Both the position numbers and the translations under genes were made by a program. Positions 21,497 to 43,664 of a stretch of DNA of 45,258 nt are shown piece by piece. The stretch comes from a virus, in the IMG/VR virus record IMGVR_UViG_3300017708_000989, positions 1 to 45,258 of that record, one strand, 5' to 3'. The notes below the pieces were generated by a model, which saw only the letters and a list, made by a program, of their open reading frames with translations, was not told the origin of the DNA and did no database searches. Each line of letters begins with the position of its first letter. Position 1 is the first letter of the stretch.

Positions 21497-22132
21497 ATGA
21501 ATATAGATAATTTAAAATCGACAATAGCAAAGAAAGGTGGATTAGCTCCGTCAAATAGATTCAATGTTATATTTGCACCACCTGCAGTTTCTTTGTTAAA
21601 CCTAAATGTAGAAAATATAATCGGGTCAGTTATTTCAGGTAACTTTAATGCTGGTAATTTATTAAACGACCCAAGAGATATATCCATACTTTGTAAATCA
21701 GTTACATTACCAGGAAGAACACTTTCTACATTCGAACATGACCACGACAGACAACAAAACAAATACCCATATACATTTATCGATGAGGATGTAACAATGA
21801 CATTCCATCTAACAAATGATTATTATATGAGAAATATGCTTGAGCAATGGCAGTCAGGCATATTTAATACCGAATCATATGTCGCAGGATTTAAAAATGA
21901 TTATTCTGTGGACGTGATAATCCAGCAATTAAACCAGAAGAATATTCCGGTTTATGGGGTTAAGTTAGAAAAAGCTTATCCAGTTTCTTATGAATCGATA
22001 ACTTTAGATAACAGCTCTGAAAATGCTGTAAATGAAATGAGCGTAACTTTTGCTTACAATAAATTTGTACCTGAAGGACCATTAAGTTCTACAGGCTCAG
22101 CAATAAGAAGCGCAATTGATAGTATACTATAG
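21497..22132 (+). CDS. Tail-tube-fold protein (gp54- or gp19-like)
   Basis: 211 residues. The pattern is that of contractile tail tube proteins: N-terminal SNRFNVIFAPPAV, a ISILCKSVTLPGRTLST strand ('CKxxTLPG'), DEDVTMTFHLTNDYYMRNML with EQWQ, and a C-terminal YPVSYESITLDNSSENA followed by NEMSVTFAYNKF. T4 gp19 has 163 residues and gp54 has 320. With gp26/gp51 just downstream and the tube cap nearby, a baseplate tube-initiator role (gp54) is plausible; a second tube paralogue is the alternative. AGGAGCTAAGA precedes the ATG. Confidence 0.7.
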   Translation: MNIDNLKSTIAKKGGLAPSNRFNVIFAPPAVSLLNLNVENIIGSVISGNFNAGNLLNDPRDISILCKSVTLPGRTLSTFEHDHDRQQNKYPYTFIDEDVTMTFHLTNDYYMRNMLEQWQSGIFNTESYVAGFKNDYSVDVIIQQLNQKNIPVYGVKLEKAYPVSYESITLDNSSENAVNEMSVTFAYNKFVPEGPLSSTGSAIRSAIDSIL

Positions 22133-22145
22133 GAGATAAAATATT

Positions 22146-22856
22146 ATGGCTTTGCCAGTAGTGAAAGGCTCTCGTTATACGACGATATTACCGTCGACCG
22201 GAGCCGAAATTGAATACAGACCTTATAATGTAGGGGAAGAAAAGTTATTAATGGTAGCTTTAGAATCGAAAGATCAAAGTATGATTATTCGAACATTGAG
22301 AGATGTTATGGAAGGATGCATATATGATACAGTAGATTTTAGTAAGTTTACTATTTTTGATTTTGAAAAATTATTCTTAGCTTTACGTGCTAAGTCTGTA
22401 GGTGAGATCGTTGATTTAGAACTTAAGTGTCAAGAGAAAGAGTGTAATTCAGTCACTCCAGTATCTGTAAACTTAGAAGAAATAAATTTATCGGATCTTC
22501 CAGAAAGTAACACTATTATCATAGATAATGATATAGGCGTTACGCTTAGATATCCTGGAATCCAGGATGTAGAAAAATATGATGAAGAGCATCTTCAGAA
22601 ACCTGAAGGCGCATTTGATATGGTTATTGATTGTATTGATACAATATTTGATGAAGAAGGTGTTTATAATTGTAAAGATGAACCAAGAGAATCGGTTGAA
22701 GGATTTCTGAATAATTTAAGTTCAGCACAATTCAAAAAGATTTCTTCTTTTTTTGAAAAGACACCAACTTTGACTCACAACATAGAGTATAAATGTGTTA
22801 AGTGTGGTAAAGAAAACGACATAGAACTAAAAGGTCTACAAAGTTTTTTTACCTAG
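22146..22856 (+). CDS. 26: Baseplate hub assembly protein gp26 (T4_baseplate family)
   Basis: 236 residues. The sequence IEYRPYNVGEEKLLMVALES, then FEKLFLALRAKSVGEIVDLE, is the recognisable core of the gp26/T4_baseplate family of marine T4-like phages (T4 gp26 has 208 residues). Four cysteines in two pairs, C-x4-C (about residue 98) and C-x2-C near the C-terminus (CVKCG), could bind zinc. The gene ends in a T7 run followed by ACC TAG; a -1 shift there would fuse it to the gp51-like frame. AGGAGA lies upstream of the start. It acts as a tail-assembly chaperone or hub factor, not necessarily in the mature virion. Confidence 0.88.
   Translation: MALPVVKGSRYTTILPSTGAEIEYRPYNVGEEKLLMVALESKDQSMIIRTLRDVMEGCIYDTVDFSKFTIFDFEKLFLALRAKSVGEIVDLELKCQEKECNSVTPVSVNLEEINLSDLPESNTIIIDNDIGVTLRYPGIQDVEKYDEEHLQKPEGAFDMVIDCIDTIFDEEGVYNCKDEPRESVEGFLNNLSSAQFKKISSFFEKTPTLTHNIEYKCVKCGKENDIELKGLQSFFT
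22844..22850 (+). promoter_or_regulatory. Putative -1 ribosomal frameshift site (T_TTT_TTT)
   Basis: The last gp26 codons read AGT TTT TTT ACC TAG, giving a T TTT TTT slippery heptamer one codon before the stop. Slipping back one base continues TAC CTA GGC into a 65-codon open frame. A weak hairpin (TAGTCT 22870-22875 / AGACTA 22890-22895) lies 20 bases downstream and could act as a stimulator. Confidence 0.75.
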
Positions 22857-23047
22857 GCCTCTCGCATGATAGTCTAGTTAACCATTACAAGACTAATTTT
22901 GCAATGATGCAACACCACGGTTATTCGTTAACCGAACTTGAAGGTATGGTGCCATGGGAGAGGGAAATTTATATTGCTCTCCTGCAAGATCATATCAAGA
23001 AGGAGAACGAAAGAGTGCAGCAACAGAATGCAAAAATGAGGAAATAG
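22850..23047 (+). CDS. 51: gp51-like hub assembly segment, expressed by -1 frameshift from gp26
   Basis: 65 codons ending in TAG at 23045-23047, with no start codon near its beginning. The encoded sequence (SHDSLVNHYKTNFAMMQHHG, YSLTELEGMVPWEREIYIAL) is the characteristic gp51-like motif set of marine T4-like phages. Through the slippery site at 22844 it would give a fusion of about 300 residues: 235 from gp26 plus 65 here. This parallels the G/GT and Mu/P2 tail-chaperone frameshifts. Two internal ATGs at about 22907 have no ribosome site, so frameshifting is the better explanation. Confidence 0.8.
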   Translation, partial: YLGLSHDSLVNHYKTNFAMMQHHGYSLTELEGMVPWEREIYIALLQDHIKKENERVQQQNAKMRK

Positions 23048-23443: not shown

Positions 23444-25237
23444 ATGGCAGACGACGATAAAAAGAATCCGGCACCACCACAAAAGCCCATAGAAAAAAGA
23501 AAGGAAAAGAAACCAGCGGTTGATCCTACTGTAGGCAATATTGATAAAGGTGTCCAAGATGCAAATAAAAACTTGGATGCTCTTATCCAAAGAAGTGGAC
23601 AGGTTTCTAATAGAGCAGAACAAAGAGCGGATTTATTATTACAGGCTGCCGATGCCCAGAAGAAGATAGACGAATTAGCTGAAAGTGGCAGAGCTAAAGA
23701 TGCTGCAGATATGCAGAAAGCTTTGGATGAAACATCTAAATTATTAAAAGGTTCTAAAAATGATATAGCTATAGGAAATAGGTTAGCTGAATTAGCTCAG
23801 ATAAACTCTAATACTTCTGACCTAATAGAAAAATATGGTTCAAAAGAAGAACAAGAATCTAAAGAAAACTTATCTGGCATAAATGGTATTATAACAAAGC
23901 TAGATGACCAAAAGAAAGCTTTAGAAGATGATACTTTAAATCAGGATTTAGGTAGACAACTTAAAAAGCTTGGTGGGGTATTCGGCCAATTTTCTACAAA
24001 AGAAACAAAAGAGCTACAGAAAGCTTATGATGATGCTAATGCACAACTAGAAGATGCTATAGCTAAAGGCGATGAGTCAGCCGCGGCAGCTGCAAGAGAA
24101 CAAATTGAAGCTATTAGTAAAGGCGCAGAATCAGAAGAGAATCGTAGAGAAGCTCAAAAGTTAAACGAAGAAGCTAACTCTAGATTATTGCAGATTGCTA
24201 ATGGTATGGAAAACATGGGCGATAAGATCGATGGTGCTGTTATGGCTGGTGCTAAAGGCGCTGGATTCTTAGCAGGATTAACTGGGCTAGCCTTATTGTT
24301 TATCGACCCAGAAACATTCCAGGCAGTTATGACAAGTATTATAGAAAAAGCTTCTATAGTATTTGATACAATCTATGCATTAGTAAGTGGAGATTTTGAT
24401 AGAGCTGGTACATTATTTAGCGAGAATATGGGATTATTCGGAAGTTTACTCGGTGGTATAATGCTATTATTTGCAGGTAAATTAATTAAACTTCTTGGTA
24501 CTGCATTAAAAATTGCTAGAGGATTCAGGATCTTTATGATGGGAACATTTATCCCAACATTGATTGGAATGTTTAGTGCTATGATTACTGCTTTAACCCC
24601 AATTGTAATTGCAATGGCTCCGATATTAGTTCCAGTACTAGCTATTATGGCATTAGTCGGTGGTCTTTATCTTGGATTTAAGAAGCTGCAAGAATCGTTA
24701 GGGCCAGGTGCAAGTATAATGGATACGTTAAAAGTTGGAATGTTATATTTTATAGATTTCTTATCGATGATTGTAAATGGTATTACATATATCCCGAGAA
24801 AATTAATAGGATTCTTAGGCAAGCGAGCAGCTAAATGGATATTAGGTGATGACTTTGATACATCGGCATTAGATGCTATATCTGAAGGATTAGATACCGG
24901 AAGAGGTGCAAGAGCAGCTGCAGAAATAAAAGCTAAGAATGAAGCTGCTGCAGCAGAAGAAGCAGCCAAATCACCAGAAGAAGAATTTGTTCCTACTACC
25001 ATGACCGAAGAAGAATTAATGGCTCAGGTAAATGCTAAAACCACTATTGATGGTGCAGCTATATCACAAAGCTCTGCAGACTTACAAGCTGATCAACAAA
25101 CAGCATCAAATAATGTAAGTGTTTCAACCGTTACATCAACTCCAACAACAACAAACAATCAGGTAATTCAATCGAATGTTACCCATATGCTACCTTCTGC
25201 AGCTTCAGCAGTACTAGGTGGCGCTTCCAGCAGATAA
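23444..25237 (+). CDS. Tail tape-measure / hub protein, gp29-like
   Basis: 597 residues, almost the length of T4 gp29 (590), which sets T4 tail length. The first 240 residues are Lys/Glu/Ala-rich helix with coiled-coil character (QRADLLLQAADAQKKIDELA). The middle (about 260-420) is hydrophobic with several potential membrane segments, as expected for a tape measure that enters the host membrane. The C-terminus is Ala/Glu- then Thr/Asn-rich. Similarity to gp29 is by architecture, length and position rather than by clear motif. A bidirectional terminator follows directly. Confidence 0.65.
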   Translation: MADDDKKNPAPPQKPIEKRKEKKPAVDPTVGNIDKGVQDANKNLDALIQRSGQVSNRAEQRADLLLQAADAQKKIDELAESGRAKDAADMQKALDETSKLLKGSKNDIAIGNRLAELAQINSNTSDLIEKYGSKEEQESKENLSGINGIITKLDDQKKALEDDTLNQDLGRQLKKLGGVFGQFSTKETKELQKAYDDANAQLEDAIAKGDESAAAAAREQIEAISKGAESEENRREAQKLNEEANSRLLQIANGMENMGDKIDGAVMAGAKGAGFLAGLTGLALLFIDPETFQAVMTSIIEKASIVFDTIYALVSGDFDRAGTLFSENMGLFGSLLGGIMLLFAGKLIKLLGTALKIARGFRIFMMGTFIPTLIGMFSAMITALTPIVIAMAPILVPVLAIMALVGGLYLGFKKLQESLGPGASIMDTLKVGMLYFIDFLSMIVNGITYIPRKLIGFLGKRAAKWILGDDFDTSALDAISEGLDTGRGARAAAEIKAKNEAAAAEEAAKSPEEEFVPTTMTEEELMAQVNAKTTIDGAAISQSSADLQADQQTASNNVSVSTVTSTPTTTNNQVIQSNVTHMLPSAASAVLGGASSR

Positions 25238-42277: not shown

Positions 42278-42784
42278 TTATACCACGAAATCGTCACCCG
42301 GATTCCACGAGCAACCTGTTAATCCACCGGCTTTAAGTCCTTGTAAAGTCCTTAAAATCTCATCTGCATTTCTACCCGTATCTAATGCATTTACTGATAC
42401 GTGTTGTATTTTATCTTCAGGGTCAACAATAAATGTTGCTCTTAAAGAAGCGAGTGCACCAAAGTCTACAATACCTAATTCATGGGATAGTTTTAATCCA
42501 CAATCTGCTAGTAAAGTATGTCTGATGTTTCCTAATGTTTCTGGTAAAGATTCTTTCCAAGCTTTTTTACAAAACTCATTATCTCCACTAAATCCTACCA
42601 CTTGAGCTTCACCTAATAATTTATCCATTGCAACAATCTCTGTTGGGCAAATAAAAGTAAAGTCTTTAGGATAGAAATAAAATACTCTCCATCCACTATA
42701 GTCCATTGAATTTCTAACAACCAATTCTTCTCCCTCTACTCCATTCATATGGAATGTAGGAAATGATTCATTTACGCCTATCAT
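42278..42784 (-). CDS. Peroxiredoxin (AhpC/TSA family)
   Basis: 168 residues. The peroxidatic Cys46 sits in FYPKDFTFICPTE, the 2-Cys Prx/AhpC motif with Pro39 and Thr43. A second, probably resolving, Cys158 is in GCSWNPGDDF near the C-terminus. It would reduce hydrogen peroxide or organic peroxides with host thioredoxin or AhpF-type reductant. The start overlaps the stop of the nuclease gene (ATGA). A phage copy may protect the infected cell against oxidative damage. Confidence 0.93.
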   Translation of the reverse strand: MIGVNESFPTFHMNGVEGEELVVRNSMDYSGWRVFYFYPKDFTFICPTEIVAMDKLLGEAQVVGFSGDNEFCKKAWKESLPETLGNIRHTLLADCGLKLSHELGIVDFGALASLRATFIVDPEDKIQHVSVNALDTGRNADEILRTLQGLKAGGLTGCSWNPGDDFVV

Positions 42785-43440
42785 TTGTTTTTTCTCCTAT
42801 TATATTCTGTTATAGTTTCTATTAATTTTTTATCCCAGTTATCTCTATGTTCAATAAAGATCTGAGCGCCTTCATCCCCAGCAATAGCAACCACTAGATT
42901 AGTAATTGGCATGCCAGTTCTTTCTTCCCACATAATTGCATATGCAGAAGCTTGCATAAAATAGTTTTCACACCATTCTTTCTTTTTATATTTCTTGGAT
43001 GTTTTCCAATCAATAATGCTAAGCTTACCATCCCAAACTCCTACACAATCTACTGTACCAGCTAATCCTAAATGTTTAGAAAATAACCGTGCTTCAACTG
43101 CATGGATTTTAGTTAGGTTCTGATCTATAATAGGTTGTATATCTTTAAAATTAGATAATGCAATCAAATTATCCTGATCAAATTCTTTTCCCACGATATA
43201 TTTTTCTATCATATCGTGTACTTTTGTTCCTCTTGTAGCTGCTTGGGTTGATATACGATTAGCTTCTTCATTGCCAACCCTTTTACGCCAAGCCATTATA
43301 GCTTCTTTATTTAAAATCGATAATACAGTAGTAACTGAATAGTATTTATTACCTTCAGGATCTGTATAATATCTTCCAGACTTTTTTGTATGTTGTTCTA
43401 AGTCTGATAAAAACTTAATTGGTTCGTATGGTATACTCAT
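42781..43440 (-). CDS. PD-(D/E)XK exonuclease-like protein
   Basis: 219 residues from ATG 43440, which overlaps the lipoprotein stop; five more codons are possible upstream. The Cas4/RecB-type signature is visible: His75 in GTKVHDMIEKY, Glu117, Asp131 (GLAGTVDCVG), Asp144-Trp-Lys146 (KLSIIDWKTSK) and Gln163-Ala-x-x-Tyr (FMQASAYA). It is predicted to degrade DNA ends, perhaps host DNA, or to act in recombination. No Fe-S cysteine cluster of Cas4 type is seen. Confidence 0.88.
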   Translation of the reverse strand: MSIPYEPIKFLSDLEQHTKKSGRYYTDPEGNKYYSVTTVLSILNKEAIMAWRKRVGNEEANRISTQAATRGTKVHDMIEKYIVGKEFDQDNLIALSNFKDIQPIIDQNLTKIHAVEARLFSKHLGLAGTVDCVGVWDGKLSIIDWKTSKKYKKKEWCENYFMQASAYAIMWEERTGMPITNLVVAIAGDEGAQIFIEHRDNWDKKLIETITEYNRRKNK

Positions 43441-43664
43441 GCTATCATCATGCAATCCATCCAGACTTCACCATCATGATGTAGCCACGGTTCACACATA
43501 TCCCATTTTTCACCTGGGGTTCTTTCCTTTGGTGGATCAACTGTTTCCTCTGGTTCACATAAATGTGATTTATCTTTCTCATTAAAACAAAGTCCAGGTA
43601 ATATCTCTACTGTAGAGCAGCTAACACTACCAACTATTATCAACAATAGGCTCAGCTTTTTCAT
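43437..43664 (-). CDS. Small lipoprotein
   Basis: 75 residues from ATG 43664. A signal peptide ends in the lipobox VGSVSC at the N-terminus; the mature part has four more cysteines (LCF, LCEP, DMCEP, DCMM) and is Pro/Glu-rich. Possible roles are an outer-membrane spanin or a superinfection-exclusion lipoprotein; the sequence does not decide. It overlaps both neighbours. Confidence 0.7.
   Translation of the reverse strand: MKKLSLLLIIVGSVSCSTVEILPGLCFNEKDKSHLCEPEETVDPPKERTPGEKWDMCEPWLHHDGEVWMDCMMIA

Follow-up and report, generated by a model that had tools for sequence, protein, structure and literature searches.

A single gene in a 45,258-nucleotide stretch of DNA from a marine T4-like phage (positions 1 to 45,258 of IMG/VR virus record IMGVR_UViG_3300017708_000989, hereafter the window) very probably encodes two tail assembly chaperones (TACs), a short TAC-N and a longer TAC-NC, by means of -1 frameshifting, a reading to which we assign a probability of about 93%. 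The gp26-type gene, the TAC-N candidate, lies on the plus strand at positions 22146–22856, encodes 236 residues in the list of open reading frames (ORFs), and matches PF12322 (E = 2.5e-59) and PHROG 150 (E = 2e-62). Its 3′ end reads AGT TTT TTT ACC TAG and carries a slippery heptamer, T TTT TTT (U UUU UUU in the RNA), at 22844–22850 on the plus strand, with the 0-frame stop TAG following one codon past the heptamer at 22854–22856. The -1 frame of the same strand holds at 22850–23047 a gp51 homologue, the candidate C-terminal part of TAC-NC, which comprises 65 sense codons (22850–23044), begins YLGLSHDSLVNHYKTNFAMMQHHGYSLTELEGMVPWEREIY, ends MRK and is closed by a TAG at 23045–23047. Among the PHROG families, this extension hits PHROG 634, 'baseplate hub assembly catalyst' (E = 2e-28), as well as the final 50 positions of PHROG 150 (E = 5e-6). 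The second hit arises because the two parts form a single reading frame in some PHROG 150 members, T4 gp51 among them; both parts of the T4 gp26/gp51 protein family (PF12322, PHROG 150 and PHROG 634) are matched by sequence. The two frames overlap with a -1 offset and are open from the slip site through the end of the downstream domain. No ATG, GTG or TTG occurs in the -1 frame before extension codon 19, where an ATGATG stands at 22904–22909, and no upstream start was found within the open stretch of that frame, which begins at 22811. An earlier note, made by a model from the letters of the window, had described the same 3′ end of a 236-residue gp26, a gp51-encoding -1 frame of 65 codons with no start codon at its beginning, and products of 236 and about 300 residues. 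All of this is borne out by the sequence, the ORF list, the translation and the PHROG 634 match, the first ATG being at extension codon 19 and the predicted fusion having 300 residues, with LQSFFYLGLSHD as its expected junction peptide.

According to the mechanism that we propose, most ribosomes would halt at the TAG at 22854 and release the 236-residue gp26 as the short form, TAC-N, and a minority would shift back by one base on U UUU UUU at 22844–22850, enter the gp51 frame and produce the 300-residue long form, TAC-NC. If the analogy with lambda G/GT holds, the tape measure protein would be coated by the short form, tube subunits would be recruited by the gp51 tail of the long one, and neither form should be present in the finished virion. 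The likeness to lambda G/GT, already drawn in the earlier note, is apt in that the products match TAC-N and TAC-NC, both of which T4 encodes as two separate paralogous genes.

The layout is conserved among relatives. Our comparison covered 224 frameshift-type loci, a set from which Ackermannviridae, split-gene phages and two indel records (Stenotrophomonas phage IME-SM1 and locus L168) were set apart. T TTT TTN stands at the junction in 224/224 of these loci, with gp51 in the -1 frame in every one; the last heptamer base is T in 119, C in 102, G in 2 and A in 1, and a 0-frame stop follows 0–2 codons past the heptamer in 222, with extensions of 56–69 amino acids. Some records occur twice in this set, so that the 57 clusters formed at <70% identity (28 at <50% identity) provide a fairer count. 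The Phe-Phe pair is written as T TTT TTN at the junction in 57/57 clusters, which are mutually related rather than fully independent and were counted because they bear the heptamer, versus 7 of 60 internal pairs in the same genes (p = 9e-26), and the third-base pattern at the junction has, by the genes' own codon usage, a log10 P of -31. Of the 104 viral-contig loci read at the junction, every one that holds both parts has gp51 in the -1 frame, even at gp26 identities of 32–45%. Annotated phages with T TTT TT followed by T, C or G at the junction belong to Kyanoviridae, Straboviridae (Schizotequatrovirus and Cinqassovirus), Emdodecavirus and Pootjesviridae, and the heptamer is also present in Menderavirus YB07 and cyanophage BUCT-ZZ01. 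No other junction type was found outside the Ackermannviridae, the split-gene phages and the two indel records. L168 has an indel within gp26; in the IME-SM1 copy (L258) the T run is one base shorter than in its near-identical relatives YB07 and L257, which breaks the site and is probably a sequencing error. The gp26 site is more than a chance occurrence: the window has four T7 runs, a T6- or A6-type heptamer close to the 3′ terminus of an ORF with 100 or more amino acids occurs twice, one of the two being the gp26 site, and the T7 site is kept in all frameshift-type relatives. The earlier note had named a comparison of the T7 site in related phages as a check on the frameshift, and the frameshift passes it: heptamer and -1 gp51 frame are kept, and many relatives have no usable separate start for gp51.

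Between the heptamer and the first ATG the -1 frame is under purifying selection, the ratio of nonsynonymous to synonymous polymorphism (pN/pS) being 0.15 in that frame versus 1.8 in the 0 frame. This bears on the possibility that gp51 is a separate small gene, begun at ATG 22904 or 22907 and coupled to gp26 termination, with no fusion being made. The in-frame ATGATG would provide the start for such a gene, and separate gp51 genes are indeed annotated in most public records, including those of P-SSM2, Mosig, HTVC008M and Vibrio phages. However, the annotated starts differ in place and cut off the conserved beginning of the extension, and the 18 codons ahead of the ATG are themselves selected in the -1 frame. 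The first ATG, GTG or TTG of that frame lies at least 4 codons past the heptamer in 47/57 clusters, and in 9 clusters a -1 stop immediately precedes the first possible start. A separate gene would moreover leave the conservation of the heptamer without a reason, the gp51 of T4-type phages is a full-length in-frame long form, and gp51 is wholly unannotated in Ah1 (L116) and S-PRM1 (L120) despite an intact -1 frame; the earlier note had remarked that this frame is easily missed. We therefore regard an independently started gp51 as very unlikely. In cyanophages, pelagiphages and related phages, gp51 is almost certainly made as the C-terminal portion of a protein produced by frameshifting.

A fusion could also be produced by RNA polymerase slipping on the T7 run, which would yield a mixed mRNA population, and a run of seven Ts can in principle promote such slippage. 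Yet 24 of the 57 clusters carry T TTT TTC, TTA or TTG, that is a run of six bases only, and what is conserved is a codon-phased heptamer with a stop close behind it, as predicted for ribosomal -1 slippage; slippage during transcription thus seems less probable still than a separate gene. Finally, the frame offset might be a homopolymer error of sequencing or assembly in what is really one continuous gene for gp26 and gp51. Errors of this kind do occur, the IME-SM1 record being one base short in its T run, but 224 loci, drawn from metagenomes and from independent isolates, show the same offset and heptamer with varied last bases, and this comparison refutes the error explanation, to which we attach next to no probability.

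Several points weigh against the reading of one frameshifted gene for two chaperones. The search that supplied the loci selected for similarity to gp26 or gp51, a procedure that favors conserved copies. The sequence layout, its conservation and the selection in the -1 frame are shown here; slippage, how often it happens and the products' work as chaperones are what we infer. An ATG at -1 frame codon 20 is invariant in the group to which the window belongs, and a further, free-standing product of some 46 residues may be made from it. The candidate compound RNA hairpin of the window (22857–22910, plus strand, 6 nt downstream of the heptamer, with an inner stem pairing 22870–22878 with 22887–22895) is modest, with a minimum free energy of -12.7 kcal/mol and a z of -2.0, and RNAalifold gave no consensus structure downstream of the site but two pairs only, on which ground we do not claim a stimulatory structure common to all loci. 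The two matches of the gp26 model to solved chaperones that are described below have E-values of 0.4 and 1.7 and span 52–61 alignment columns, and the assignment of the candidate tape measure gene at 23444–25237 is positional. As regards the RNA, the inner stem is 83.5% paired in the window's group and includes three covarying pairs, and clear hairpins lie about 6 nt downstream in P-SSM2-type and S-H34 sequences. Downstream folding is on average stronger than expected from synonymous-codon randomisation, with a z of about -1.7 as compared with -0.7 in a control region, and it is lineage-specific; a downstream RNA structure is weakly supported. An Rfam search at the site gave no match above chance. 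Upstream, a Shine-Dalgarno-like purine run, AAAAGG (22829–22834, plus strand), stands 9 nt ahead of the heptamer, an arrangement similar to that of E. coli dnaX, and AGG or GGG is found 8–9 nt upstream in 52/57 clusters. A conserved glycine codon explains part of this, and as a frameshift signal the purine run is suggestive only.

An AlphaFold2 model of gp26, built from an alignment of the window and viral-contig proteins, has a mean pLDDT of 91.7. Compared with solved structures, the model matches the HK97 tail assembly chaperone 2OB9 (probability 0.84) and Rbstp2171, 3FGX (probability 0.72), which are the sole PDB matches with a probability above 0.5 among the 50 matches listed and which have both been grouped with tail assembly chaperones (PMC9603447). 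The predicted fold of gp26 thus weakly resembles those of solved tail assembly chaperones, which speaks for the chaperone reading without proving it. A sequence search of solved structures returned nothing relevant, and among predicted viral proteins the model matched baseplate hub proteins of the gp26 type from further T4-like and Ackermannviridae-like phages. The gene order of the region is a tube-fold gene, the chaperone gene, a gene for a 127-aa protein, and the candidate tape measure gene. The protein with a tail-tube fold of the gp19/gp54 type is encoded at 21497–22132 on the plus strand (PF06841, E = 1.1e-7; PHROG 45 tail tube, E = 9e-37). The expected client of the chaperones, a candidate tape measure protein, has 597 amino acids (23444–25237, plus strand) and matched no family in Pfam or PHROG; its counterparts by position in HTVC008M and phiM12 carry a tape measure annotation and resemble it weakly in sequence.

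T4 has gp26 and gp51 as neighboring, divergently transcribed genes, each of which matches PF12322 (8.8e-64 and 3.9e-52, respectively). When the sequences are aligned, the gp26 of T4 comes to its end three residues past the junction FF, and gp51 continues in frame through the tail; the two are paralogues, a short form and an in-frame long form. Two PF12322 genes, short and long, are present in T4, RB49, Aeromonas 25, Acj9, KP27 and CP220, and one in the other 22 of the 28 records tested, including every heptamer-bearing or Ackermannviridae record. The window record also has one, and its arrangement is not that of the two separately encoded genes of T4. No heptamer was found at the junction of the split genes. 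Campylobacter phage CP220 (L162, L165) carries its short gene and its long, gp51-tailed gene over 8 kb apart, and this split may be independent of that in T4. In a tree of the core domain, the separately encoded gp26 and gp51 of Straboviridae form one group with a support that is not strong (83/78) and stand beside the frameshift genes of Ah1 and Vibrio phages (89/75), a grouping that fits one duplication from a frameshift ancestor. We give even odds to a history in which the frameshifted single gene is ancestral in T4-type, Ackermannviridae-type and rhizobial phages, and in which Straboviridae of the T4 branch, and possibly Campylobacter phages in a second event, went over to two genes by duplication and lost the heptamer. 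If this were true, the family would offer a natural series for following the loss of a recoding signal after gene duplication. Five phages of the Ackermannviridae or alike (L144–L148: Vibrio 207E48.1, rabagast, 3M, D531 and VAP7) also have a gp51-like tail in the -1 frame, with the weaker junctions CTTTTTC, ATTTTC, GTTTTC, CTTTTC and GTTTTTC. There is no ATG at the junction in rabagast and 3M, where the tail is unannotated, and in the three Vibrio phages an ATG overlaps the stop; the mechanism in this group may be mixed.

Among known systems, lambda gpG/gpGT is similar in that the window gene, too, lies just ahead of the (here candidate) tape measure region, and the conserved tail-gene frameshift was reportedly described by Levin in 1993 and by Xu, Hendrix and Duda in 2004. 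The slippery site of lambda, G GGA AAG, differs from the T TTT TTT of the window, and no sequence similarity to lambda proteins is claimed. With T4 gp26/gp51 the window shares the PF12322 family, the same gp51 tail, and short and long forms ending at the same place, whereas T4 uses a gene of its own for each form, the two being divergent and lacking a slippery site, and the window has one gene with a -1 heptamer. P-SSM2, S-SM1, HTVC008M and Mosig have the same heptamer type, the same -1 frame and similar neighbors, but their public records annotate two genes, with inconsistent gp51 starts. In the TAC locus of Vandenendeviridae, a different phage family, TAC-N is likewise followed by an under-annotated downstream frame that is reached by a -1 frameshift on a T run, which is shorter there and has the motif GTTTTT (PMC12846349).

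The idea of a frameshifted gp26/gp51 is not new. As cited in PMC10885494 and PMC12846349, the TAC genes of T4-like phages (gp26 and gp51) were identified by Vladimirov, Gautam and Davidson (2022, Virology 566:9-15), and PMC12846349, citing the same work, mentions poly-T slippery signals in T4-like TAC-N genes. Because that study, according to these citations, already identified the gp26/gp51 pair in T4-like phages, the window locus is a further, well-supported case of a device that many tailed phages are known to use. Our results correct a recurrent annotation error, the gp51 of cyanophages, pelagiphages and relatives having been given ad hoc starts or missed. They also support a role as short and long tail assembly chaperones for T4 gp26 and gp51. 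These two have long been counted among the proteins of the hub or of its assembly, with a role that was unclear; in a 2010 review on how the T4 tail is assembled, both appear as hub assembly chaperones, with gp51 essential but of unknown function (PMC3004832). The contrast between lineages with one gene and a heptamer and lineages with two genes and none is testable.

Two other heptamers of the window were noted. Inside gp26, at 22748–22754, T TTT TTT occurs once more in frame, encoding part of SSFFEK; the -1 frame entered there reaches a stop within a few codons, and heptamers inside the gene are uncommon among relatives (7 of 60 FF pairs). The other, AAAAAAC in a minus-strand ORF at 42781–43455, was rejected as a candidate, because that ORF overlaps in the ordinary way a peroxiredoxin gene with an ATG start of its own. 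That peroxiredoxin-like gene (AhpC/TSA, E = 3e-19), at 42278–42784 on the minus strand, is part of the phage genome.
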